In this document: positions 2,682 through 56,554 of the stretch, piece after piece
Layout of the letters: every line of letters starts with the position of its first letter
Position numbering within the stretch: position 1 is the stretch's first letter
Assembly: GCA_024691085.1 (NCBI GenBank)
Contig: JAILNX010000032.1
Coordinates: forward strand, 1 to 64,000
Direction of reading: 5' to 3'
Source of the DNA: Clostridiales bacterium
Lineage (GTDB): Bacteria > Bacillota > Clostridia > Christensenellales > CAG-138
Length of the DNA stretch: 64,000 nt
The notes under the pieces: generated by a model
What the model was told of the DNA's origin: nothing
Databases searched by the model: none
The model's input: only the letters and a program-made list of their open reading frames with translations
Made by a program: the position numbers and the translations under genes

Positions 2682-3182
2682 ATGGACGTTTCAAAACTTT
2701 CAGATAACTACTTTGTGCGGTCTTTGAACCGATCGGATATCGGCATGATCCTCTCATTATGCAGAAAGAACGATCTGTACTATCAGTACTGTCCGCCTGT
2801 CTTTTCGGAACATAGCATTCTTCATGATATGGAAGCCTTGCCTCCGCGAAAAAGTCTTTCCGACAAGCATTATGTAGGCTTTTTCAAGGACGGCGCCCTG
2901 ATTGCCGTGATGGATCTCATTGAGGCGTATCCTGATGAGAAAACTGCGTTTATCGGCTTTTTTATGACGGACACGGCTATTCAGAACAAAGGCGTCGGAA
3001 GCGCGTTGATCGAGGAAGTATGTTCCTTCCTTCGAGGAGAAGGCTTTACAAGCGTACGGCTCGGATGGGTGAAAGGGAATCCACAGTCGGAGCATTTTTG
3101 GCATAAATGCGGCTTTACGGAGACCGGAGCTTTATACGAGACAAACGCATATACTGTAATTGTTGCGCAAAGAGCCTTATGA
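2682..3182 (+). CDS. GNAT-family N-acetyltransferase
   Basis: A 166-residue single-domain GNAT. The acetyl-CoA pyrophosphate loop is visible as Q-N-K-G-V-G-S-A (about 104-111, pattern Q/RxxGxG/A), followed by the alpha-helix I-E-E-V-C-S-F-L and the C-terminal N-P-Q-S-E-H-F-W-H-K-C-G-F motif common to the family. Acceptor substrate cannot be told. It is a stand-alone gene with its own promoter, between the Fe-ADH relic and a convergent glycosyltransferase. Confidence 0.85.
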   Translation: MDVSKLSDNYFVRSLNRSDIGMILSLCRKNDLYYQYCPPVFSEHSILHDMEALPPRKSLSDKHYVGFFKDGALIAVMDLIEAYPDEKTAFIGFFMTDTAIQNKGVGSALIEEVCSFLRGEGFTSVRLGWVKGNPQSEHFWHKCGFTETGALYETNAYTVIVAQRAL

Positions 3183-3290
3183 TCCCGGCTGCCGGTCTAT
3201 TTGCGGAAATGTCTTTCGGGAAGTCTATCGCACGTAAAAGTGATCCCATCCGCTCCGTATGTTTGAATGAAAAGAAAGCGCCCGCGCAAT

Positions 3291-3310
3291 AATGCGCAGA
3301 CGCATTTTTA
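3291..3310. terminator. Small hairpin between convergent GNAT and glycosyltransferase genes
   Basis: AATGCG-CAGA-CGCATT followed by TTTT on the plus strand. The minus-strand transcript also carries a GC-rich stretch and a TTTCTTTT tail just beyond, so it may stop both genes. Nothing recognisable is coded between 3183 and 3290. Confidence 0.5.
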
Positions 3311-3330
3311 ATATCCTGTCGGGGCGCCGC

Positions 3331-4728
3331 TCAGCTATTCTCGCGGTGCTTCTTTACCAATGCCGCGTACCTGAGCTTCTTAAACCAGCTGCCGATCGGA
3401 TACGACAGCACGCCGGCCGGGACGCCGACGATCCAGGCATATTTCCAGCCGATGAGAGAGCCGGTAAGCACGGTCAGGGCGGGGGCGATGACCCAGTACA
3501 GCAGCCTGAATCTCGAACAATCCTTGTTAAGCTCCTTGACGATATCGACGCCGTTCGATCTGTGCGGCGCGTTCTCTATGAATTCCGCCGCGCCGGCCGT
3601 GCCGGGGCAGGACCGCAGGTCCTTACTGCATTCCATCGCCGCCTGCGCGTATTCTTCACTGTCGAGTATCTTTCGCACGGCTGCCCGGATACCCGCAGCC
3701 GAATCGTCTTTGAGGATAACGCCGGCGTTCAGCTCCTCGGCCCGCCTTGCAACGGCCTTCTGCTCGCTCGTCTGCGGATAGAGCACCATCGGCGCTGCCA
3801 TATACATGCTCTCCGAAACGCTGTTCATTCCGCAGTGGGTGATGAAGGCGTTCGCCCTTGAAAGCACGTCGAGCTGGTCGACGTAAGGATAGACCTTGAT
3901 ATTATCGGGAAGGACTCCGAGCGAATCACGGTCAAGCGCATTGCCGCAGGAAATGATCACGTCGACGTCCTCGCCTTTAAGGGCTTCGATGCATTTGCCG
4001 TAGAAATCCGGCCTGTCGTTTATTACGGTGCCCATTGAGATGTAGACGAGCGGACGCGCGTTATCTTTTTTCGGCCCGGCTTTCGAAAACACCGAGGGAC
4101 CGACAAATGCGTAATGATCCGTGAAGCTCTCGACGCAGGGCTGGAACCTGCGGGACGTGTAAACGACCGAATCGGTATCGTTGTCGCTCTGGATCAGCGA
4201 CAGGGTATTCTTCACGTGATAGCCGTAGGGCTCGAGCTTCTTAAGCTCTTTGGTAAGCCTCGGAAGGCCGAAGATCATATCCGCGAGCTCCTTCGGGGAG
4301 TTCTTCATGTACTGCGAGGAGATCTGGTTGAAAGCAAAAGTGCTGGTGGATACGACCATCGGTACGTTGTGCTTCCACGCGTTCAGCTTGCCCCAGAAGC
4401 AAACCGAATCGGTGTAGACGACGTCGGGACGGAAGGACTTGAACTCCTTGTCAAGGAACCCGTCCATCGCGAGCGTGAGGCGGATATCCTGCACGGCAAG
4501 CTCCGTGGAGGATACGGCCTTGAGGCCGGCTTCTTCCCGCTCCGATAAGGAGGGGAGGAACCTGTCGCACGAAACGAACTCCGCTCCGGAGGCGGCTATC
4601 TTCTTTTCGAATTCATTGAACGAGTAGAACCTGACAGCGTTGCCGCGCTTGACAAGCTCGGAAGCGACGGGGATCATCGGATTCGTATGCCCGTGAGCGG
4701 GGATGCAGAAAAAGGCGATCTTCTTCAT
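3331..4728 (-). CDS. MGT-type glycosyltransferase (GT1) with C-terminal membrane hairpin
   Basis: A 465-residue GT-B enzyme of the macrolide-glycosyltransferase/UGT type. The N-terminal P-A-H-G-H-T-N-P (about 9-16) and the C-terminal nucleotide-sugar motif T-H-C-G-M-N-S-V-S-E-S-M with a following P-Q-T-S-E-Q are both clear. Unlike soluble MGTs it ends with about 60 residues holding two hydrophobic segments (L-L-Y-W-V-I-A-P-A-L-T-V-L and Y-A-W-I-V-G-V-P-A-G-V-L), implying membrane attachment and perhaps a lipid acceptor. It overlaps the upstream AbrB-like gene by ATGA and is surely co-transcribed. Acceptor and sugar are unknown. Confidence 0.85.
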   Translation of the reverse strand: MKKIAFFCIPAHGHTNPMIPVASELVKRGNAVRFYSFNEFEKKIAASGAEFVSCDRFLPSLSEREEAGLKAVSSTELAVQDIRLTLAMDGFLDKEFKSFRPDVVYTDSVCFWGKLNAWKHNVPMVVSTSTFAFNQISSQYMKNSPKELADMIFGLPRLTKELKKLEPYGYHVKNTLSLIQSDNDTDSVVYTSRRFQPCVESFTDHYAFVGPSVFSKAGPKKDNARPLVYISMGTVINDRPDFYGKCIEALKGEDVDVIISCGNALDRDSLGVLPDNIKVYPYVDQLDVLSRANAFITHCGMNSVSESMYMAAPMVLYPQTSEQKAVARRAEELNAGVILKDDSAAGIRAAVRKILDSEEYAQAAMECSKDLRSCPGTAGAAEFIENAPHRSNGVDIVKELNKDCSRFRLLYWVIAPALTVLTGSLIGWKYAWIVGVPAGVLSYPIGSWFKKLRYAALVKKHRENS

Positions 4729-48014: not shown

Positions 48015-48043
48015 TTGACAGAATGAACGTTTTATTATATAAT
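48015..48043 (+). promoter_or_regulatory. Consensus promoter of the lysine fermentation operon
   Basis: Exact TTGACA (48015-48020), 17 bp, exact TATAAT (48038-48043). The predicted start is about 48048-48051, immediately at the 5' edge of the riboswitch. Confidence 0.8.
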
Positions 48044-48255
48044 CGATAGGTAGAGGCGCAGAGACTCAGGTAGCGCACGCGGCATGCCGCGGAGCACTCG
48101 ATCCGTGCGTGAATGGGGTCTTTGCCGAAGGTGCGTTTCTTTCCGCGAAGGGCGCGCCTGGGCGTACGGCCGAGCGCCGTGCGACTGTCATTGATACACG
48201 TCAATGGAGCGCTATTTAACGGCCTTTCGCGGCCGTTAAACGAGCGCCTTTTTTT
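48044..48255 (+). ncRNA. Lysine riboswitch, predicted lysine-ON, with expression platform
   Basis: L-box aptamer: conserved GAGGCGC (48053-48059) with AGGTAGCGC after it, a CGCGGC/GCCGCG hairpin, a GCAC/GTGC hairpin, the signature TGCCGAAG (48123-48130), helix AGGTGCG/CGCGCCT, helix CGTACGGC/GCCGTGCG, and the 3' core ACTGTCATTGA...TCAATGGAGCGC (48184-48212). P1 would pair AGGTA (48048-48052, perhaps extended by upstream bases) with TATTT (48213-48217). These 3' bases are also the 5' side of the terminator TTTAACGGCC (48215-48224)/GGCCGTTAAA (48231-48240); its base GCGCT (48209-48213)/AGCGC (48243-48247) consumes the aptamer core, and T7 follows at 48249-48255. Aptamer and terminator are mutually exclusive, with no separate antiterminator seen, so lysine should allow read-through. 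The aptamer class is secure; the direction of control is inferred from pairing. Confidence 0.88.
48207..48255 (+). terminator. Riboswitch-controlled terminator
   Basis: 10-bp stem TTTAACGGCC/GGCCGTTAAA plus a 5-bp base GCGCT/AGCGC that brings the hairpin next to the seven T residues. Without the base, 8 nt separate the upper stem from the T run, which would make termination poor. Confidence 0.8.
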
Positions 48256-48286
48256 CACAGAAAATTAAAGCACGGAGGAAATACTC

Positions 48287-48691
48287 ATGGAAAAGATCAC
48301 ATCCACGATCCGTCTCCGCATGAGCGCGCAGGACGCTCATTACGGCGGAAACCTTGTTGACGGCGCGCACATGCTCGCGCTCTTCGGCGACGTTGCCACG
48401 GAGCTTCTTATCAAGCTCGACGGCGACGAGGGACTTTTCAAGGCTTATGATATGGTCGAGTTCATCGCTCCCGTCTTCGCGGGCGACTATATCGAGGCGT
48501 ACGGCGAGATCACTCACATCGGCAATACCTCCCGCAAGATGGTCTTCGAGGCGAGGAAGGTCATCGCTCCCCGTCCCGACATCAACGATTCCGCCTGCGA
48601 CGTTCTCGCCGAGCCGATCGTTGTCTGCCGCGCGTCCGGCACCTGCGTCGTTCCGAAGGATAAGAAACGCGGCAATTACGAGAATCTTTGA
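48287..48691 (+). CDS. kal: 3-aminobutyryl-CoA ammonia-lyase
   Basis: A 134-residue hot-dog-fold protein matching Kal, which deaminates 3-aminobutyryl-CoA to crotonyl-CoA, a late step of lysine fermentation. Visible family segments are [25 protein letters not shown] and [14 protein letters not shown]. It has a CACGGAGGAAAT ribosome site and is first after the riboswitch. The order kal-kce-kdd is the same as in known lysine fermenters. Confidence 0.93.
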
Positions 48692-48707
48692 TTGAGAGAG
48701 GAAGACC

Positions 48708-49535
48708 ATGGAAAAACTCATAATCACCGCCGCTATCTGCGGAGCCGAGGTCACCAAGGCTCACAATCCCGCCGTTCCCTATACGGTCGAGGAAATGGTA
48801 AACGAGGCGCGCAGCGCATATAATGCAGGCGCGGCCATAATCCACGTTCATGTCCGTCACGACGACGGTACCCCCACTCAGGACCGCGAGCGCTTCCGCG
48901 TCGTAATGGACGCGATCAGGCGCGAGCTTCCCGACGTTATCATGATCCCCTCGACTGGCGGCGCAACGGGCATGAGCCCCGAGGAGCGTCTCCAGCCCAC
49001 CGAGCTCTTCCCCGAGATGGCGACGCTCGACTGCGGCACCTGCAACTTCGGCGACGAGATCTTCGACAACACCATGCCCAATATGCGCGTTTTCGGCAAG
49101 CGCATGATCGAAAAAGGCATCAAGCCCGAGTACGAGTGCTTTGAGATGGGCCATATCGACACGATCCTCGACATGGCGAGGAAGGGCGAGGTCCCCGGCG
49201 ATCCCATGCAGTTCAACTTCGTTCTCGGCGTAAAGGGCTGCACTCCCGCGACCGTTCAGAACCTTGTCTGGATGGTAAACGCCATTCCCGCGAACGCCAC
49301 CTGGACTTCCACGGGCGTAGGCCGCGCGGCGTTCCAGCTTGCCGCTCCGACCATCGTAATGGGCGGCAACGTGCGCGTAGGCTTTGAGGACAACATCTAT
49401 CTCTCCCGCGGCATCAAGGCGGCGTCGAACGGCGAGCTCGTCGAAAAGGTCGTAAGGCTTTCCCGCGAGCTCGGGCGCGAGATCGCGTCCCCCGAAGAGG
49501 CAAGGCGCATCCTGAGCCTCAAACCCATTAAGTGA
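48708..49535 (+). CDS. kce: 3-keto-5-aminohexanoate cleavage enzyme
   Basis: A 275-residue BKACE-family TIM barrel that condenses 3-oxo-5-aminohexanoate with acetyl-CoA, giving acetoacetate and 3-aminobutyryl-CoA. The zinc-site H-V-H-V-R (about 46-50) with D-D-G-T-P-T is clear, and the family start L-I-I-T-A-A-I-C-G-A-E-V-T-K. It follows kal by 16 nt. Confidence 0.95.
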   Translation: MEKLIITAAICGAEVTKAHNPAVPYTVEEMVNEARSAYNAGAAIIHVHVRHDDGTPTQDRERFRVVMDAIRRELPDVIMIPSTGGATGMSPEERLQPTELFPEMATLDCGTCNFGDEIFDNTMPNMRVFGKRMIEKGIKPEYECFEMGHIDTILDMARKGEVPGDPMQFNFVLGVKGCTPATVQNLVWMVNAIPANATWTSTGVGRAAFQLAAPTIVMGGNVRVGFEDNIYLSRGIKAASNGELVEKVVRLSRELGREIASPEEARRILSLKPIK

Positions 49536-49572
49536 TTATCAATTAAGAAATATAAACGGAGGTTACAAAATT

Positions 49573-50613
49573 ATGGCACTCAAAGGCAACAAATACGGCA
49601 CTCACAGGGTCATCGAGCCCCACGGCGTTCTTACCCAGGCTGCTTGGAAGATCGATAACGACATGACCAAGCATTATTCCAACGAGATCATCTGCGACGT
49701 TATCTCCCTTAATATCGACTCCGCTTCCTTCACCCAGATCGAGGAAGCCTGCGAAGGCGACGAGAAGAGGATCGGTGAAATGATAATGGGCATCGTTGCC
49801 GAGCGCGGCAAGCAGCAGAACCCCGTAACCGGTTCCGGCGGTATGTTCATCGGCAAGGTCGCCTATATCGGCGAAGATCTTAAGGACCGCGACCTCAAGG
49901 TCGGCGACAAGATCGCGTCCCTCGTATCCCTGTCCCTTACTCCTTTGAAGATCGACAAGATCCTTGCCATCCATAAGGATATCGACCGCGTTGACATCGT
50001 CGGTCAGGCCGTGCTCTTCGAGAGCGGCATCTATGCCAAGCTCCCCGACGACATGAGCGAGACCCTCGCCCTTGCGGCTCTTGACGTAGCCGGCGCTCCC
50101 GCCCAGGCCCGCAAGCTTCCCAAGGAGGGCGACAGCGTTCTCATTCTCGGCGCTAACGGCAAATCCGGCGTTCTCTGCGGCTATGAGGCCATGAAGAAGG
50201 TCGGACCCACCGGCAACGTCGTCGGCGTTGTAAGGAACCCGAAGCAGGTCCCCGCTCTTATGGAGCTCGGCGTTTACAACAAGGTCGTCGTCGCCTCCGC
50301 GACGGAGCCCATCGCCGTCCTCGACGCTGCTCTTGAGGCCAACGGCGGCAAGGAGTACGATATCTCCATCTGCTGCGTCAACGTTGAGTCCTGCGAGATG
50401 AGCGCGATCCTCCCCGTTCGCGACGACGGTATCGTTTACTTCTTCTCCATGGCTACCTCCTTCACCAAGGCGGCTCTCGGCGCCGAGGGCATCGGCAAGG
50501 ACGTCACCATGATCATCGGCAACGGCTACACCAAGGATCATGCCGAGATCACGCTGAACGTGCTCCGCGAGAACGAGAAGCTCAGGAAGCTCTTTGACGA
50601 GAAATACTGCTGA
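49573..50613 (+). CDS. kdd: L-erythro-3,5-diaminohexanoate dehydrogenase
   Basis: A 346-residue NAD(P)-dependent enzyme oxidising 3,5-diaminohexanoate to 5-amino-3-oxohexanoate. It opens with G-N-K-Y-G-T-H-R-V-I-E-P and has a Rossmann fold with G-A-N-G-K-S-G (about 192-198). It follows kce by 37 nt with a GGAGGTTAC ribosome site. Full length for the family. Confidence 0.95.
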   Translation: MALKGNKYGTHRVIEPHGVLTQAAWKIDNDMTKHYSNEIICDVISLNIDSASFTQIEEACEGDEKRIGEMIMGIVAERGKQQNPVTGSGGMFIGKVAYIGEDLKDRDLKVGDKIASLVSLSLTPLKIDKILAIHKDIDRVDIVGQAVLFESGIYAKLPDDMSETLALAALDVAGAPAQARKLPKEGDSVLILGANGKSGVLCGYEAMKKVGPTGNVVGVVRNPKQVPALMELGVYNKVVVASATEPIAVLDAALEANGGKEYDISICCVNVESCEMSAILPVRDDGIVYFFSMATSFTKAALGAEGIGKDVTMIIGNGYTKDHAEITLNVLRENEKLRKLFDEKYC

Positions 50614-50677
50614 TTTCATTCATGCCGCTGCCCCTGACCGGGCAGCGGCGTTTTGAAACGAAAGGGGTATTCTGACG

Positions 50678-51271
50678 ATGAAAAGACTTGCGTCCGCGAT
50701 GCTTATCCTGCTTGCCGCGGTAATGTGCGTTTCGTGCGGGAATAAGAATAAAAAAGGCCCCACCGACGTCGATTACGGCGAGGTCAGGTACGTCCTTTAC
50801 GACGACGGTTCGCGCATGAGCTTCGAATATCTCGACTGCTTCAAACGGACGGAGATGGAGGAGAAGAACTTCATCACCTACACCGCCGACAGGAAGGGCG
50901 TTCTGACCTATCAGATCTACGATCCGACGGCAAAGGAGGACAGCCTTGACAAGCCGAAGTACGGCTATGCCGACATCAGCGCCTTTACCGACGAGCAGGC
51001 TGAAAGCTATATGCGCGTCGCGCTCGGGATGACCGATATACAGAACGCGGAATATACGATCGACAGCTTTACGATCGATCGCATGGACGAGGAGATACGC
51101 CTCTATATGGAGGCGACAGCCGTTTACGGATCGACGGGGGAGATACAGAAGCTCTGGATGGTCAGGATCATCACGTCAAACGACGAGGTCTACACCCTTC
51201 AGGCGTTCGCTCCCGCAAGCATCGTCACGAAATACGGTCCCGCTTTCAGGAACATATCTTTCAACGAATAA
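50678..51271 (+). CDS. Unknown lipoprotein inserted in the lysine fermentation operon
   Basis: A 197-residue predicted lipoprotein (K-R-L-A-S-A-M-L-I-L-L-A-A-V-M-C-V-S-C-G; Cys20 is the likely acylated residue, the box V-S-C being short of one residue from consensus A/G-C). The mature part is acidic, about 170 residues, with alternating beta strands and a helix (T-D-E-Q-A-E-S-Y-M-R-V-A-L), resembling small PsbP/Mog1-like lipoproteins, though I make no family claim. It lies between kdd (64 nt gap) and kamA (22 nt gap), on the same strand, with AAAGGGG as ribosome site. All other genes of the operon encode cytoplasmic enzymes. Confidence 0.75.
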   Translation: MKRLASAMLILLAAVMCVSCGNKNKKGPTDVDYGEVRYVLYDDGSRMSFEYLDCFKRTEMEEKNFITYTADRKGVLTYQIYDPTAKEDSLDKPKYGYADISAFTDEQAESYMRVALGMTDIQNAEYTIDSFTIDRMDEEIRLYMEATAVYGSTGEIQKLWMVRIITSNDEVYTLQAFAPASIVTKYGPAFRNISFNE

Positions 51272-51293
51272 TCAACAGAAAGGGCAAATCACT

Positions 51294-52574
51294 ATGATCA
51301 CGATCAATAAGAGCCGCGCCTACGGGCTGTTCAAGGACGTTCCCGACGAGCTTTGGAACGATTGGCAGTGGCAGGTCGCGAACCGCGTTGAGACGCTGGA
51401 AGACCTTAAAAAATTCATTAAGCTCACTCCCGAGGAGGAGGACGGCGTCAAGAAGTGCCTCGGGACGCTTCGTATGGCGATCACTCCTTACTACCTCTCG
51501 CTCATCGATCCCGACGATCCGTTCGATCCCGTAAGGCGTCAGGCGATCCCCACCGCGCTCGAGCTCTTCAAGGCGCCCGAGGATCAGCTCGATCCCCTGC
51601 ATGAGGACACGGACTCGCCCGTTCCCGGACTTACCCACAGGTATCCCGACCGCGTGCTCTTCCTCGTGACCGACCAGTGCTCCATGTACTGCCGTCACTG
51701 CACGAGGCGCCGCTTTGCAGGCCAGCACGACACGGCGGTTCCCGACTGCCAGATCGAGGGCTGCCTGGACTATATCAGAAAGCACCCCGAGGTGCGCGAC
51801 GTACTGCTCTCCGGCGGCGACGCGCTCATGATCCCCGACGAGAAGCTCGAGTACATCATCTCCGAGCTCAGGAAGATACCCCACGTCGAGATCGTGCGTA
51901 TCGGTTCCCGTACGCCCGTCGTCTGCCCGCAGAGGATCACGCCCGCTCTCTGCAATATGCTCAAGAAGTATCATCCCATCTGGCTGAATACACATTTCAA
52001 CCACCCGAAAGAGATCACCGAGGAGTCAAAGCGCGCCTGCGCTATGCTCGCCGACGCCGGTATTCCTCTCGGTAACCAGACGGTCCTCCTTCACGGAGTG
52101 AACGACTGCGTACACGTAATGAAGAAACTCGTCCAGGCGCTTGTCTATATCAGGGTCCGCCCGTATTATATCTACGTCTGCGACCTGTCGATGGGTCTCA
52201 CCCACTTCCGCACCCCCGTTTCGAAGGGCATCGAGATCATTGAAGGTCTCCGCGGCCATACCTCCGGTTATGCCGTTCCCACCTTCGTCGTCGACGCTCC
52301 CGGCGGCGGCGGCAAGACGCCCGTTATGCCCAATTACGTCATCAGCCAGACCCCGAGGAAGGTCATTCTCAGGAACTTCGAAGGCGTCATAACCACCTAT
52401 ACCGAACCCGAAAATTATCATGAGGACTGCCATTGCGAGGAATGCCGCAAGGCGAGGGGCGAGAAGTTCGAGCCCGTTGGCGTAGCAGGCCTTGAGCAGG
52501 GACGTAAGGACGGAAGCATCTCACTTGAGCCCAAGGGTCTTGCAAGGCTCGAAAGGGGAAGGAAGCATGACTGA
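51294..52574 (+). CDS. kamA: L-lysine 2,3-aminomutase
   Basis: A 426-residue radical SAM, PLP-dependent enzyme converting L-lysine to L-beta-lysine. The cluster motif is C129-S-M-Y-C133-R-H-C136, then T-R-R-R. Other signatures are L-L-S-G-G-D-A-L-M, H-F-N-H-P-K-E-I-T, D-A-P-G-G-G-G-K (PLP lysine) and the C-terminal zinc-binding C-x-C-x2-C (C-H-C-E-E-C). It overlaps kamD by ATGA-type coupling. Confidence 0.96.
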   Translation: MITINKSRAYGLFKDVPDELWNDWQWQVANRVETLEDLKKFIKLTPEEEDGVKKCLGTLRMAITPYYLSLIDPDDPFDPVRRQAIPTALELFKAPEDQLDPLHEDTDSPVPGLTHRYPDRVLFLVTDQCSMYCRHCTRRRFAGQHDTAVPDCQIEGCLDYIRKHPEVRDVLLSGGDALMIPDEKLEYIISELRKIPHVEIVRIGSRTPVVCPQRITPALCNMLKKYHPIWLNTHFNHPKEITEESKRACAMLADAGIPLGNQTVLLHGVNDCVHVMKKLVQALVYIRVRPYYIYVCDLSMGLTHFRTPVSKGIEIIEGLRGHTSGYAVPTFVVDAPGGGGKTPVMPNYVISQTPRKVILRNFEGVITTYTEPENYHEDCHCEECRKARGEKFEPVGVAGLEQGRKDGSISLEPKGLARLERGRKHD

Positions 52575-54120
52575 AAAGCTCAGGCTGAATCAGGAAAACG
52601 TAAATAAGGCCCGCGAATCGGCACACAGGATCGCCGTCGATACGCAGAACTTTATAGATCTGCACACGACGGTCACCGTCGAGCGCACCGTCTGCCGTCT
52701 TCTCGGCATCGACGGAGTGAACGCGCTCGACGTACCGCTTCCCAACGTGGTCGTCGACCATATGAGCGAAAAAGGTCTCCTCGGCATCGGCGCGGCGTAT
52801 CTCATCGGCCAGGCGATGCTCGATACCGGCAAGACTCCGCAGGAGATCGCGGAGGCCATAGACGAGGGCGCGATCGATCTTTCGAACCTGCCTCCCAGGT
52901 CGATCGAGGAGATCCGCGGCGTCATTATGCCGGTCGCCGAAGCGACGGCCGAAAGGGTAAGAAAGAACGTCGCGAAAAGGAACGAGTATCTTTCCGAATA
53001 CGGCGACAAGACCGATCCTTATCTTTACGTCATCGTCGCAACGGGCAATATCTATGAGGATATCACCCAGGCGAAGGCCGCGGCAAAGCAGGGCGCGGAC
53101 ATTATCGCGGTCATAAGGACCACGGGACAGAGCCTCCTCGACTACGTTCCCTACGGCGCGACCACCGAGGGCTTCGGCGGCACCTACGCCACGCAGGAGA
53201 ATTTCCGTCTTATGCGCGCCGCGCTCGACGAGGTCGGTGAGGAACAGCATCGCTACATCAGGCTCTGCAACTACTGCTCCGGTCTCTGCATGCCCGAGAT
53301 CGCCGCGATGGGCGCTCTTGAGAGGCTCGACGTCATGCTGAACGACGCCCTTTACGGCATCCTCTTCCGCGACATCAACCCCCAGCGCACCATCATCGAC
53401 CAGTACATGAGCCGCGTCATCAACTCCTTCGCGGGCGTCATAATCAACACCGGCGAGGACAACTACCTTACCACCGCCGACGCAGTCGAAGAGGCGCACA
53501 CGGTTCTCGCTTCCCAGTTCCTTAACGAGCAGTTCGCTCTTGAGGCGGGTCTTCCCGAGGAGCAGCAGGGCCTCGGCCATGCGTTCGAGATCAATCCCGA
53601 CGTCGAGAACGGCTTCCTTTACGAGCTCGCGCAGGCGCAGATGGCAAGGCAGATATTCCCGAAGGCTCCGCTTAAATACATGCCCCCGACCAAATTCATG
53701 ACGGGCAACATCTTCCGCGGACACGTGCAGGACGCGCTGTTCAATATCGTGACCATTCTCACGGGGCAGAGGCTGCATCTTCTCGGCATGCTGACCGAGG
53801 CTATCCATACCCCGTTCATGAGCGACCGCGCGCTGTCGATCGAGAACGCGCAGTACATCTTCCGCACGATGCACGACCTCGGCGACGATATCACCTTCCG
53901 CGAGGGCGGCATCATGGAAACGAGGGCGAACGAAGTCCTTCAGAAGGCGACGGACCTTCTCGGCGAGATCGAGAAGATGGGACTCTTCACCACCCTCGAA
54001 AAGGGCATCTTCGCAGACATAAAGCGTTCGCGCGACGGCGGCAAGGGCTTGAACGGCGTCACAAGAAAGGACGCGGTCTACTTCAATCCCTTCATCGAGC
54101 TTATGAAGAGGGAGGCGTAA
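52567..54120 (+). CDS. kamD: Lysine 5,6-aminomutase alpha subunit
   Basis: A 517-residue large TIM-barrel subunit of the adenosylcobalamin- and PLP-dependent enzyme that moves the terminal amino group of beta-lysine to C5. Start at 52567 follows GGGGAAGGAAG and overlaps the last codons of kamA; the upstream in-frame ATG at 52492 is inside kamA. Characteristic segments include Y-G-A-T-T-E-G-F-G-G-T-Y-A-T-Q-E-N and L-C-N-Y-C-S-G-L-C-M-P-E. It pairs with KamE, 3 nt downstream. Confidence 0.95.
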   Translation: MTEKLRLNQENVNKARESAHRIAVDTQNFIDLHTTVTVERTVCRLLGIDGVNALDVPLPNVVVDHMSEKGLLGIGAAYLIGQAMLDTGKTPQEIAEAIDEGAIDLSNLPPRSIEEIRGVIMPVAEATAERVRKNVAKRNEYLSEYGDKTDPYLYVIVATGNIYEDITQAKAAAKQGADIIAVIRTTGQSLLDYVPYGATTEGFGGTYATQENFRLMRAALDEVGEEQHRYIRLCNYCSGLCMPEIAAMGALERLDVMLNDALYGILFRDINPQRTIIDQYMSRVINSFAGVIINTGEDNYLTTADAVEEAHTVLASQFLNEQFALEAGLPEEQQGLGHAFEINPDVENGFLYELAQAQMARQIFPKAPLKYMPPTKFMTGNIFRGHVQDALFNIVTILTGQRLHLLGMLTEAIHTPFMSDRALSIENAQYIFRTMHDLGDDITFREGGIMETRANEVLQKATDLLGEIEKMGLFTTLEKGIFADIKRSRDGGKGLNGVTRKDAVYFNPFIELMKREA

Positions 54121-54123
54121 GGT

Positions 54124-54912
54124 ATGTCAAGCGGATTATACAACACGCATAAGGCGGACTTCGATACCCATTTCGATCCCACCCGCGTAAAGGCTTACGG
54201 CGATACCATGAACGACGGCAAGGTGCAGTTTTCCTTCACCCTGCCCGTTAAGAATGACGAGCGCGGCGTTGAGGCCGCAAGGCAGCTCGTCCGCAAGATG
54301 GGCGTCGACGAGCCGAACGTCGCCTGCGCGAAGACTCTTGATAAGGAGTTCACCTTCTTCGTCGTATACGGCTCCGTCTCCCATTCCGTCGACTATGAGA
54401 ACATCCACGTCCTCACCGTCGAGGAGGAGACCATGAGCATGGAGGAGACCAACGAATACATCAAGAAGCATTTCGGCAGAAAGCTCATATTCGTCGGCGC
54501 TTCCACCGGCACCGACGCGCATACCGTCGGCATCGATGCCATCATGAACCGCAAGGGCTTCGCGGGACATTACGGATTGGAGCGCTACGAGATGATCGAG
54601 GCGTACAACTGGGGGGCGCAGATACCGAACGAGGAATTCGTAAAGCGCGCGCTCGAGGTCAACGCCGACGTGCTGCTCGTATCGCAGACCGTCACCCAGA
54701 AGGATATCCATATCCAGAACCTCACCGAGCTCGTCGAGTATCTCGAGGCGGAGGGTCTCCGCGACCGCTTTATACTCTGCTGCGGCGGCGCGCGCATCAC
54801 GCACGAGCTTGCGAAGGAGCTCGGCTACGACGCCGGCTTCGGCGCGGGCAAGTATGCCGACGACGTTGCGACCTTCGCCGTTACCGAGATGGTCAAGCGC
54901 GGAATGAAGTGA
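54124..54912 (+). CDS. kamE: Lysine 5,6-aminomutase beta subunit
   Basis: A 262-residue B12-binding subunit. The base-off cobalamin motif DxHxxG is D131-A-H133-T-V-G136, and K144 (N-R-K-G) matches the lysine that forms the PLP aldimine in the family. C-terminal Rossmann-like B12 domain with L-L-V-S-Q-T-V-T-Q-K and C-G-G-A-R-I-T. With KamD it completes the activation of lysine to 3,5-diaminohexanoate. Last gene of the operon. The accessory kamB/kamC-like genes and a lysine permease found next to it in some fermenters are not in this window. Confidence 0.96.
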   Translation: MSSGLYNTHKADFDTHFDPTRVKAYGDTMNDGKVQFSFTLPVKNDERGVEAARQLVRKMGVDEPNVACAKTLDKEFTFFVVYGSVSHSVDYENIHVLTVEEETMSMEETNEYIKKHFGRKLIFVGASTGTDAHTVGIDAIMNRKGFAGHYGLERYEMIEAYNWGAQIPNEEFVKRALEVNADVLLVSQTVTQKDIHIQNLTELVEYLEAEGLRDRFILCCGGARITHELAKELGYDAGFGAGKYADDVATFAVTEMVKRGMK

Positions 54913-54923
54913 TCAACCTTATA

Positions 54924-54957
54924 AGGGCTCCGAAAAAGTTTTTCGGAGCTCTTTTTA
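54924..54957 (+). terminator. Terminator of the lysine fermentation operon
   Basis: AGGGCTCCGAAAAA / TTTTTCGGAGCTCT stem (one G-U pair) followed by TTTT. Confidence 0.8.
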
Positions 54958-55000: not shown

Positions 55001-56554
55001 ATGGAACAAACGAGCGAAAAGACCTATATCTGCATCGATCTCAAATCCTTCTACGCCTCGGTAGAGTGCGCGGACAGGGGCCTTGACGCGCTTAAAACCA
55101 ATCTCGTCGTGGCGGATCTTACCCGCACGGAAAAGACCATCTGCCTCGCCGTGACGCCGTCCCTTAAGGCATACGGGATTTCCGGCCGGGCAAGGCTTTT
55201 CGAGGTCATCCAGAGGGTGAGGGAGATAAACTGCGAAAGGCGCATGGCGAACCGCGGCAGGCGTTTCACCGGCAAATCGTCGAACGACGACGAGCTCAAG
55301 GCCGATCCCTCGCTCGAACTCGACTACATCGTCGCGCGGCCGAGGATGGCGCGATACGTCGAGGTGTCGACGGCGATCTATAACGTCTATCTGAGGTACA
55401 TTTCGCCGGAGGACATTCACGTCTATTCGATCGACGAGGTGTTTATCGACGCGACGAGCTATATCAATACTTACAGGCTCACCGCAAGGGAGCTTGCGAT
55501 GGCCTTGATAGGCGACGTGCTGAAGGAGACGGGCATCACGGCGACGGTCGGCATCGGCACGAATCTGTATCTCGCGAAGATCGCCATGGACATCGACGCG
55601 AAGCATATGCCGCCCGATGAGAACGGCGTAAGGATATCGGAACTCAATGAGATGACCTATCGCGAGCGGCTTTGGGATCACCGCCCGATAACGGATTTCT
55701 GGCGGATCGGCCCCGGTATCGCATCGAGACTCGAGAAATACGGCATGCACACCATGGGCGATATCGCGCTCTGTTCGGTCGGGAAGGGCTGCGTGACGGA
55801 GGATTTCCTCTATAAGCTATTCGGCATCAACGCGGAGCTCATAATCGACCACGCGTGGGGGTACGAGCCCTGCACAATGCAGGATATCAAGGCGTACCGT
55901 CCGCGGGCGCACTCGGTCAGCATGGGGCAGGTGCTCATGGAGCCGTACGACTTCAAAAAGGCGGAGCTGGTCGTGCGCGAGATGGCGGATAATCTTGCGA
56001 TGGATCTGTTCACGAAGGGGCTCGTTACCGACAAGATCGACCTCGCGATAGGATATGACATCGAAAACATAAAGGATCCGGAGCGAAGGCGCATGTTCAA
56101 GGGTACGGTCAGCGTCGATCACTACGGACGCGAAAAGCCGAAGTCCGCGCACGGCTCCGTAAACATCAAAAATAGCTCGTCCTGCCGGATAATCGCCGAC
56201 GCGGCGACGGCGCTCTTCGAACGCATAACGGACAGGACGCTGCTTATAAGAAGGATCAACATCGCGGCGCTGCACGCTTCTTTGCCCGAATTAGAGAGCG
56301 AGGAGTCGCTGCAGCTCGACCTGTTCTCGGATCCCGAGGATAAGCTTAATGCCGCCGGAGCGGAAAAGAAGGCGATCGAAGCCGATATGCGCCGTCAGGA
56401 AGCGGTCATGAGGATACGCGACAAGTTCGGTAAGAACGCGATCCTTCGCGGGATGAACTACGAGGAGGGCGCGACCGCACGCATGCGGAACGCCCAGATA
56501 GGCGGACACAGATCCGGCGACGGAGAGAAAGCGGAGGACGAGAAGCATGAATGA
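55001..56554 (+). CDS. Y-family (UmuC/UvrX-like) DNA polymerase
   Basis: A 517-residue translesion polymerase. Catalytic acidic residues appear in I-C-I-D-L-K-S-F-Y-A-S-V-E-C-A (6-20) and V-Y-S-I-D-E-V-F-I-D (about 142-151). The fingers/thumb follow, with a helix-hairpin-helix I-G-P-G-I-A-S-R-L-E and an extended little-finger domain carrying S-S-C-R-I-I-A-D-A-A. Length and the R-M-A-x-Y-V-E-V-S region place it in the group paired with YolD proteins (YqjW/UvrX type). No ribosome site precedes the ATG. Overlaps the YolD-like gene by 8 nt. Confidence 0.93.
   Translation: MEQTSEKTYICIDLKSFYASVECADRGLDALKTNLVVADLTRTEKTICLAVTPSLKAYGISGRARLFEVIQRVREINCERRMANRGRRFTGKSSNDDELKADPSLELDYIVARPRMARYVEVSTAIYNVYLRYISPEDIHVYSIDEVFIDATSYINTYRLTARELAMALIGDVLKETGITATVGIGTNLYLAKIAMDIDAKHMPPDENGVRISELNEMTYRERLWDHRPITDFWRIGPGIASRLEKYGMHTMGDIALCSVGKGCVTEDFLYKLFGINAELIIDHAWGYEPCTMQDIKAYRPRAHSVSMGQVLMEPYDFKKAELVVREMADNLAMDLFTKGLVTDKIDLAIGYDIENIKDPERRRMFKGTVSVDHYGREKPKSAHGSVNIKNSSSCRIIADAATALFERITDRTLLIRRINIAALHASLPELESEESLQLDLFSDPEDKLNAAGAEKKAIEADMRRQEAVMRIRDKFGKNAILRGMNYEEGATARMRNAQIGGHRSGDGEKAEDEKHE

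Follow-up and report, generated by a model that had tools for sequence, protein, structure and literature searches.

Why should a lysine-sensing RNA stand in front of genes that degrade lysine, and in which direction would it switch them? The question is raised by the leader of an operon in a stretch of 64,000 nucleotides (nt) of contig JAILNX010000032.1 from a Clostridiales bacterium, referred to here as the window. In this leader an L-box, the aptamer of the lysine riboswitch, precedes six genes of lysine fermentation, kal, kce, kdd, kamA, kamD and kamE. An original prediction, made from the letters of the DNA, had proposed that lysine turns the operon on by blocking a terminator. The analysis presented here points the same way: a transcriptional riboswitch switched on by lysine very probably controls kal-kce-kdd-kamA-kamD-kamE. 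This ON reading is supported by the anatomy of helix P1 and the terminator in the window, by 99 further L-boxes of the same bacterial family, and by 21 further aptamers associated with kal.

The aptamer and the terminator share a strand

The L-box had been recognised in the original prediction, which proposed a search with the Rfam covariance model RF00168. That search returns a full-length match (model positions 1-182) at 48043-48222 on the forward strand, with a score of 87.7 bits (gathering score 30, E 1.3e-21). It is the single match in the window and the single match in the whole genome (1.98 Mb, 94% complete). The residues forming the lysine pocket in Thermotoga maritima, as listed in the accessible text of PMC3764141, were mapped onto the window by way of two conserved motifs of the Rfam consensus, GAGG.GC and AGUA, a mapping of our own. 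They are present as G48053-G48056, G48058, C48059, G48124-A48128, U48186, G48187, G48209 and C48212. These residues, pocket positions G9-G12, G77-A81, U140, G141, G163 and C166 among them, are invariant in 62 of 62 aptamers lying before kal in the family, the window's included. Score and pocket residues alike place the aptamer in RF00168. Its ligand is most likely still lysine, for which its affinity may differ.

Helix P1, which closes the aptamer, joins 48048-48053 to 48212-48217 through the pairs G-C, A-U, U-A, G-U, G-U and A-U. Its 3' strand is used a second time, in the leader terminator, whose stem pairs 48209-48213 with 48243-48247 and 48215-48224 with 48231-48240 around a loop at 48225-48230. 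Five of the six P1 3' bases (C48212, U48213 and U48215-48217) are paired in this stem. The hairpin at 48206-48249 folds with -24.4 kcal/mol, compared with a mean of -12.7 for shuffled sequences (z -4.24), and none of 200 shuffles was as good. A simple terminator scan reported nothing at the leader, whose stem has an internal loop. The coordinates of the original prediction hold to within 1 nt, the P1 3' strand, given there as 48213-48217, being 48212-48217.

Since the P1 3' strand is reused in the terminator, closure of the aptamer and termination exclude each other through the common strand 48212-48217, which is the logic of an ON switch. The design expected of an OFF switch, a separate antiterminator together with a terminator compatible with P1, is not seen. 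As had been claimed, there is no distinct antiterminator; no stretch is free between P1 and the terminator that could hold one. Control of translation was rejected, as none of the switching helices includes the ribosome binding site.

The leader would then work as follows. RNA polymerase would start at about 48050 and make the aptamer. If lysine is bound as 48212-48217 emerges, P1 would close and hold its 3' strand. The lower half of the terminator could then not form, leaving only an upper hairpin of 6-8 base pairs that falls about 11 nt short of the U tract; folded alone, this hairpin (48219-48238) has -10.2 kcal/mol and ends at about that distance. With the terminator blocked, polymerase would read into kal-kce-kdd-kamA-kamD-kamE. 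When lysine is lacking, the P1 3' strand and the preceding J5/1 bases would form the terminator's 5' arm, and the transcript would end at the U7 tract. The direction and the size of this response are predictions.

Platforms across the family and beyond

Whether the design of the window is peculiar to kal can be judged from its relatives. RF00168 was searched in 103 genomes of the family, of which 79 had a match; the matches number 100 with that of the window, and the other 99 were fetched. Directly before kal stand 62 of them, while 38 precede other genes. The latter fall into clusters of 15, 9, 6 and 6, whose representatives match, in that order, an NhaC-type antiporter, a family-3 solute-binding protein, a LysA-type decarboxylase and an aspartokinase, with 2 outside clusters. 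One fixed terminator rule was applied to all loci, and overlap was scored where 2 or more of the 6 P1 3' bases recur in the first terminator.

This rule detects a terminator at 60 of the 62 kal loci and at 27 of the 38 non-kal loci. The two kal loci without one are L109, which has a P1-overlapping hairpin by a rule anchored on P1, and L119, which has none. P1 is reused in 60 of the 60 kal terminators (5-6 bases in 55), whereas 22 of the 27 non-kal terminators leave P1 free, reusing no P1 3' base. The contrast, 60/60 against 5/27, gives a Fisher p of 4e-16 uncorrected for relatedness. When the most stable terminator is chosen instead, P1 overlap is seen at 55/60 kal and 3/27 non-kal loci; in the five kal exceptions the most stable terminator is a second, downstream one. 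The non-kal L-boxes have the same five-helix aptamer and core residues as the window. Their terminators, by contrast with its overlapping one, start 11-78 nt beyond the aptamer and are compatible with P1 in 22/27. Ten genomes hold both kinds. Across the family the platform thus tracks gene function, which supports the ON reading.

It could be argued instead that lysine promotes termination through an unseen antiterminator and so represses its own fermentation, most riboswitches that control transcription being OFF switches (PMC2258182). Against this stand the strand common to P1 and the terminator in the window, the absence of room for a separate antiterminator, and the P1 overlap seen throughout the kal terminators and not in 22 of the 27 others. 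It would also make little sense for a substrate to repress its catabolic operon. An OFF switch is accordingly extremely unlikely.

The ON design can be followed outside the family. A sample of the phylum comprised 398 genomes, kal scoring over the cut-off in 78 with the window's genome counted. RF00168 was searched with strict filters in 79 kal-matching genomes (77 over the cut-off and 2 below, the window's left out). L-boxes are present in 40 of the 79; in 6 of these genomes kal has one on its own strand, no more than 7 kb upstream. The remaining 73 have no L-box in that interval, so other kinds of kal regulation must be common there, and L-box control of kal seems, from these genomes, to be confined to some lineages. 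In 80 named kal loci nhmmer detects 18 with an L-box, a minimum, since it misses L164, which the Rfam model finds; 5 of the 18 were already in the set. The 21 further kal aptamers have two sources. Six genomes of other families contributed 8, two tandem pairs among them; the other 13 come from named records, which may or may not belong to the window's family.

With these included, a P1-anchored terminator is found for 80 of 83 kal aptamers. That rule looks near P1 only, and the family counts by the fixed rule are the unbiased figures. Covariation can be seen directly in the shared strand. At P1 3' positions 5 and 6, where the sequence is variable, 76 and 78 of the 80 preserve the terminator pair, as A-U, U-A, G-C, C-G or G-U, and 65 and 45 the P1 pair. 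Positions 1-2 hardly vary and are hence uninformative.

Several kal loci are more elaborate. At L161 (genome G355) genes for a sigma-54 activator and an amino acid permease (865-2325, 2717-4093) stand between the L-box and kal and kce. This is the Thermoanaerobacter layout of PMC5584792, with the permease in between. At L164 (about 601-1045) and L165 (reverse strand) two complete L-boxes of the kal type stand in tandem directly before kdd, each with its own P1-overlapping terminator, and L164 adds a third, truncated aptamer 3' end with a hairpin. The L164 cluster runs kdd, an open reading frame without family, a MutS-like gene, kamD, kamE, kal, kce, kamA. Double lysine riboswitches have been reported, 14 in number, in PMC9481103.

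Beyond the first terminator, a second copy of the aptamer 3' end (J5/1 and the P1 3' strand) leads into another terminator-like hairpin at L102, L104, L117, L100, L101, L118, L122, L087, L114, L110, L076, L169, L170, L171, L175 and L182; the 18-nt copy at L175 is exact. No copy scoring at least 13/18 occurs in the 38 non-kal family loci. A 13/18 self-match in the window falls on its terminator 3' arm and was rejected as a copy. In nascent folds of 19 candidate leaders, the 3' arm of the first terminator pairs with the copied strand (at least 4 pairs) before the second terminator is complete in 18, and such relay pairing could, by these folds, couple both terminators to one aptamer. Counting against a relay, fuller folds in which the first copy is sequestered favour the second terminator in 16 of 19 leaders. 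No description of a single aptamer with double terminators was found in the open-access literature.

The short P1 and its promoter

Several results weigh against the ON reading. The predicted transcript start, at about 48049-48051, leaves P1 with 4-6 pairs, two of them G-U. Free folding with ViennaRNA, which takes no account of tertiary contacts or ligand and mispairs the core GAGGCGC, gives P1 a pair probability of 0.13-0.30 for RNA ending at 48218, 0.00-0.23 at intermediate lengths and 0.00 at 48248 and beyond; at no length folded does it exceed 0.30. When P1 is imposed on the leader, the folding energy rises from -97.8 to -87.9 kcal/mol, a loss of 9.9 kcal/mol in stability. P1 is touched by five of the 27 non-kal terminators, and three of the 83 kal L-boxes (L119, L225 and L229) have no P1-anchored terminator. 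The controls are themselves not beyond question, as antiterminators in them are not firmly shown. A duplex test at the 24 non-kal family loci with a terminator beyond the aptamer found none at p <=0.05. In nascent folds of these 24 loci the aptamer 3' end pairs with the 5' half of the terminator (at least 4 pairs) in 22, more stably than in shuffles (p <=0.03) in only 8. The OFF logic of the non-kal controls therefore rests on P1 compatibility and gene function.

The fall of the P1 probability to 0.00 once the terminator is complete is, in these models, as expected for competing structures. Because P1 is weak when ligand-free and costs 9.9 kcal/mol, switching would have to rest on kinetics, tertiary contacts and ligand energy; and because the full terminator is the more stable structure, the choice must be kinetic. 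Lysine would have to bind before the 3' arm of the terminator emerges, supplying the stability that P1 lacks.

A further explanation takes the short P1 at face value: the leader might be a plain attenuator whose aptamer no longer switches, promoter drift having cut P1 to 4-6 pairs. The start predicted inside the P1 5' strand agrees with this, as do congeners in which the first two P1 positions are unpaired (4 of 6 pairs remain, for example, in L070). A dead switch would be expected to drift, however. The -10 box ends 4-6 nt before P1 in all 12 L-boxes of the genus, and the transcript should therefore start within P1. All 12 have a TTGACA box with 6/6 matches, TATAAT is perfect in 11 and TAAAAT in one, and the aptamer core is invariant. 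Loss of switching is very unlikely on these grounds. One more genome of the genus is without an RF00168 match. At the other 50 kal loci a -10 box was found by rule in 46, at 7-36 nt before P1. The original prediction had named a P1 of about 5 base pairs as its weak point; the predicted start does leave P1 about that short, but, on the evidence of these promoters, the short P1 is a conserved trait of the genus.

The coordinates of the leader and the operon are collected in Table 1. All six enzymes pass their NCBIfam equivalog cut-offs, which bears out the claim of a complete lysine-fermentation operon. The nearest kal among named records are those of Christensenella sp. UBA3857 (100%) and a sheep-omasum Clostridia metagenome-assembled genome (99%), so the DNA probably comes from an uncultured bacterium of that group. 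The open reading frame between kdd and kamA has no Pfam or NCBIfam match. Of 11 congeneric loci, 9 have its homologue, with 45-76% identity, and L080 has one at 32%; it is fast-evolving, the operon enzymes being at least 92% identical in congeneric loci. After the operon, on the same strand, lies a DNA polymerase IV/UmuC-like gene (55001-56554), whose Y-family matches are below the curated NCBIfam cut-offs.

Table 1. Positions of the leader elements and genes of the kal operon in the window
Feature	Position	Strand	Evidence or remark
Sigma-70 promoter, TTGACA - 17 nt - TATAAT	48015..48043	+	12/12 consensus matches; ends 4 nt before P1
Lysine riboswitch aptamer, five-helix L-box	48043..48222	+	RF00168, 87.7 bits, model 1-182
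P1 5' strand, AGGTAG	48048..48053	+	RF00168 structure line; its first 1-3 nt probably precede the transcript start
P2 internal loop, 5' side, A-GGUA (Rfam consensus AugAGUA)	48068..48072	+	GGUA marks the kal subclass
P4 terminal loop region (L4)	48168..48177	+	A126-equivalent adenine (48172) is G
Leader terminator hairpin (intrinsic)	48209..48247	+	fold -23.3 kcal/mol; overlaps P1 3' strand and J5/1
P1 3' strand, CTATTT (switching strand)	48212..48217	+	common to aptamer P1 and terminator 5' arm
U7 tract of the leader terminator	48249..48255	+	sequence
Ribosome binding site, GGAGGA	48274..48279	+	sequence; outside aptamer and terminator stems
kal, 3-aminobutyryl-CoA ammonia lyase	48287..48691	+	NF052388, 197.1 bits, cut-off 160
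kce, 3-keto-5-aminohexanoate cleavage enzyme	48708..49535	+	NF052387, 411.7 bits, cut-off 382
kdd, 3,5-diaminohexanoate dehydrogenase	49573..50613	+	NF052381, 263.3 bits, cut-off 200
Open reading frame without family	50678..51271	+	between kdd and kamA; lipoprotein-like N terminus (judged by eye)
kamA, lysine 2,3-aminomutase	51294..52574	+	TIGR03820, 623.5 bits, cut-off 525.4
kamD, lysine 5,6-aminomutase alpha subunit	52567..54120	+	NF052384, 919.1 bits, cut-off 600
kamE, lysine 5,6-aminomutase beta subunit	54124..54912	+	NF052385, 400.4 bits, cut-off 280
Operon terminator (stem and T run)	54923..54956	+	fold -19.4 kcal/mol, z -5.6

A variant aptamer and its place among lysine riboswitches

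The aptamers before kal differ from others in more than their terminators. They were compared with a set of 78 non-kal aptamers, made up of the 38 from the family and 40 chosen from kal-bearing genomes of the phylum. All 83 kal aptamers have GGUA in the P2 internal loop, with AGTA also occurring nearby in 5 of them. None of the 78 others has GGUA; 66 have AGUA and 12 neither motif. The first P5 pair is U-A in kal aptamers (99 and 94%) and C-G in the non-kal set (79 and 82%). All 38 non-kal family aptamers have an adenine at the L4 position equivalent to A126, compared with 3 of the 62 before kal. On the P2 side of the contact that this adenine makes, one to two nt are missing, the number varying with the alignment, and A26 has become G. 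The core elements AGAGG-GC, GCCGA, CTGTC and G-GCT are kept. When the discriminating columns are removed, a tree of all 161 aptamers, built from few columns and with weak support, needs 3 label changes, compared with a mean of 54 for shuffled labels and none as low in 500 shuffles. By these marks the kal L-boxes are a distinct aptamer subclass.

In T. maritima, A126 and A127 of L4 dock on the P2 pairs U24-G68 and A23-G69; the A127-A23-G69 triple is described as fully conserved and the L4-P2 contact as crucial for attenuation (PMC3764141). The same docking is listed in PMC3494683. In the window both sides of this contact are altered by our mapping. The altered contact marks a variant aptamer that is still a member of RF00168, the contact lying outside the Rfam definition. 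Another contact, or other loop motifs, may replace the docking.

Do these changes mean that the aptamer senses something other than lysine? It might respond to beta-lysine or to another intermediate of the pathway, still as an ON switch. The GGUA in place of AGUA, the U-A in place of C-G and the frequent loss of the L4 adenine could be taken in this sense, as could A162, a part of the pocket floor in PMC3764141, which is replaced by U in 25 of the 62 family aptamers before kal. The window, however, retains A162 (48208), the remaining pocket residues of PMC3764141 are kept, and most of the changes lie in peripheral elements. A different effector is therefore unlikely. More tentatively, it is possible that the P2 loop, L4 and the first P5 pair were rebuilt together with the P1-reusing terminator, giving a sensor whose set point or kinetics, or even effector, is not that of the L-boxes of biosynthesis and transport.

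An ON lysine riboswitch on catabolic kal/kce genes is of a kind already known, and the catabolic LYS elements that the original prediction mentioned are in print. Section 13 of PMC5584792 describes positively regulated L-boxes before kal/kce in Clostridium sticklandii, Fusobacterium nucleatum and two Thermoanaerobacter species. Like the L-box of the window, these precede genes of acetate-type lysine degradation. The main text of that paper makes no use of the words terminator or antiterminator and presents no expression platform, whereas the window shows one. Compared with those species by their description, the window has an L-box that leads a full kal-to-kamE operon in an uncultured relative of Christensenella, a P1 fused to the promoter, and an aptamer of a separate subclass. 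ON logic in which pieces of the terminator stem are buried is likewise on record for certain lysine riboswitches (PMC2258182, citing Rodionov 2003). The adenine and some glycine and lysine riboswitches discussed there have the logic of the window; the adenine and glycine aptamers differ from its own, and lysine ON switches receive one sentence, without sequences. The covariation model of lysine aptamer and platform in PMC13273304 also has common covarying bases, involving more of the aptamer than in Bacillus subtilis lysC, but it is one general RF00168 model, tied, unlike the kal set, neither to catabolic genes nor to an aptamer subclass. The aptamer subclass, the promoter-fused P1 and the family-wide contrast of platforms were not found in the open-access literature.

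ON catabolic lysine riboswitches have thus been proposed from comparative genomics, with no platform shown for one in the open-access literature found. The locus described here and its relatives form a testable set: the platform is clear, some of the genomes also carry L-boxes of the other design for comparison, and the subclass is marked by the single motif GGUA. On the sequences compared, a separate branch of the lysine riboswitch family appears to go with the switching on of lysine fermentation. Should the subclass bind or fold with a different affinity or rate, it would illustrate the retuning of an aptamer's peripheral contacts that accompanies a change in the sign of regulation. The GGUA motif would flag the control of lysine fermentation from sequence, for use in annotation. 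If the aptamer was indeed rebuilt as a different sensor, a cell with both kinds of L-box, as in the ten genomes noted above, could read lysine through two sensors of opposite sign and different thresholds.

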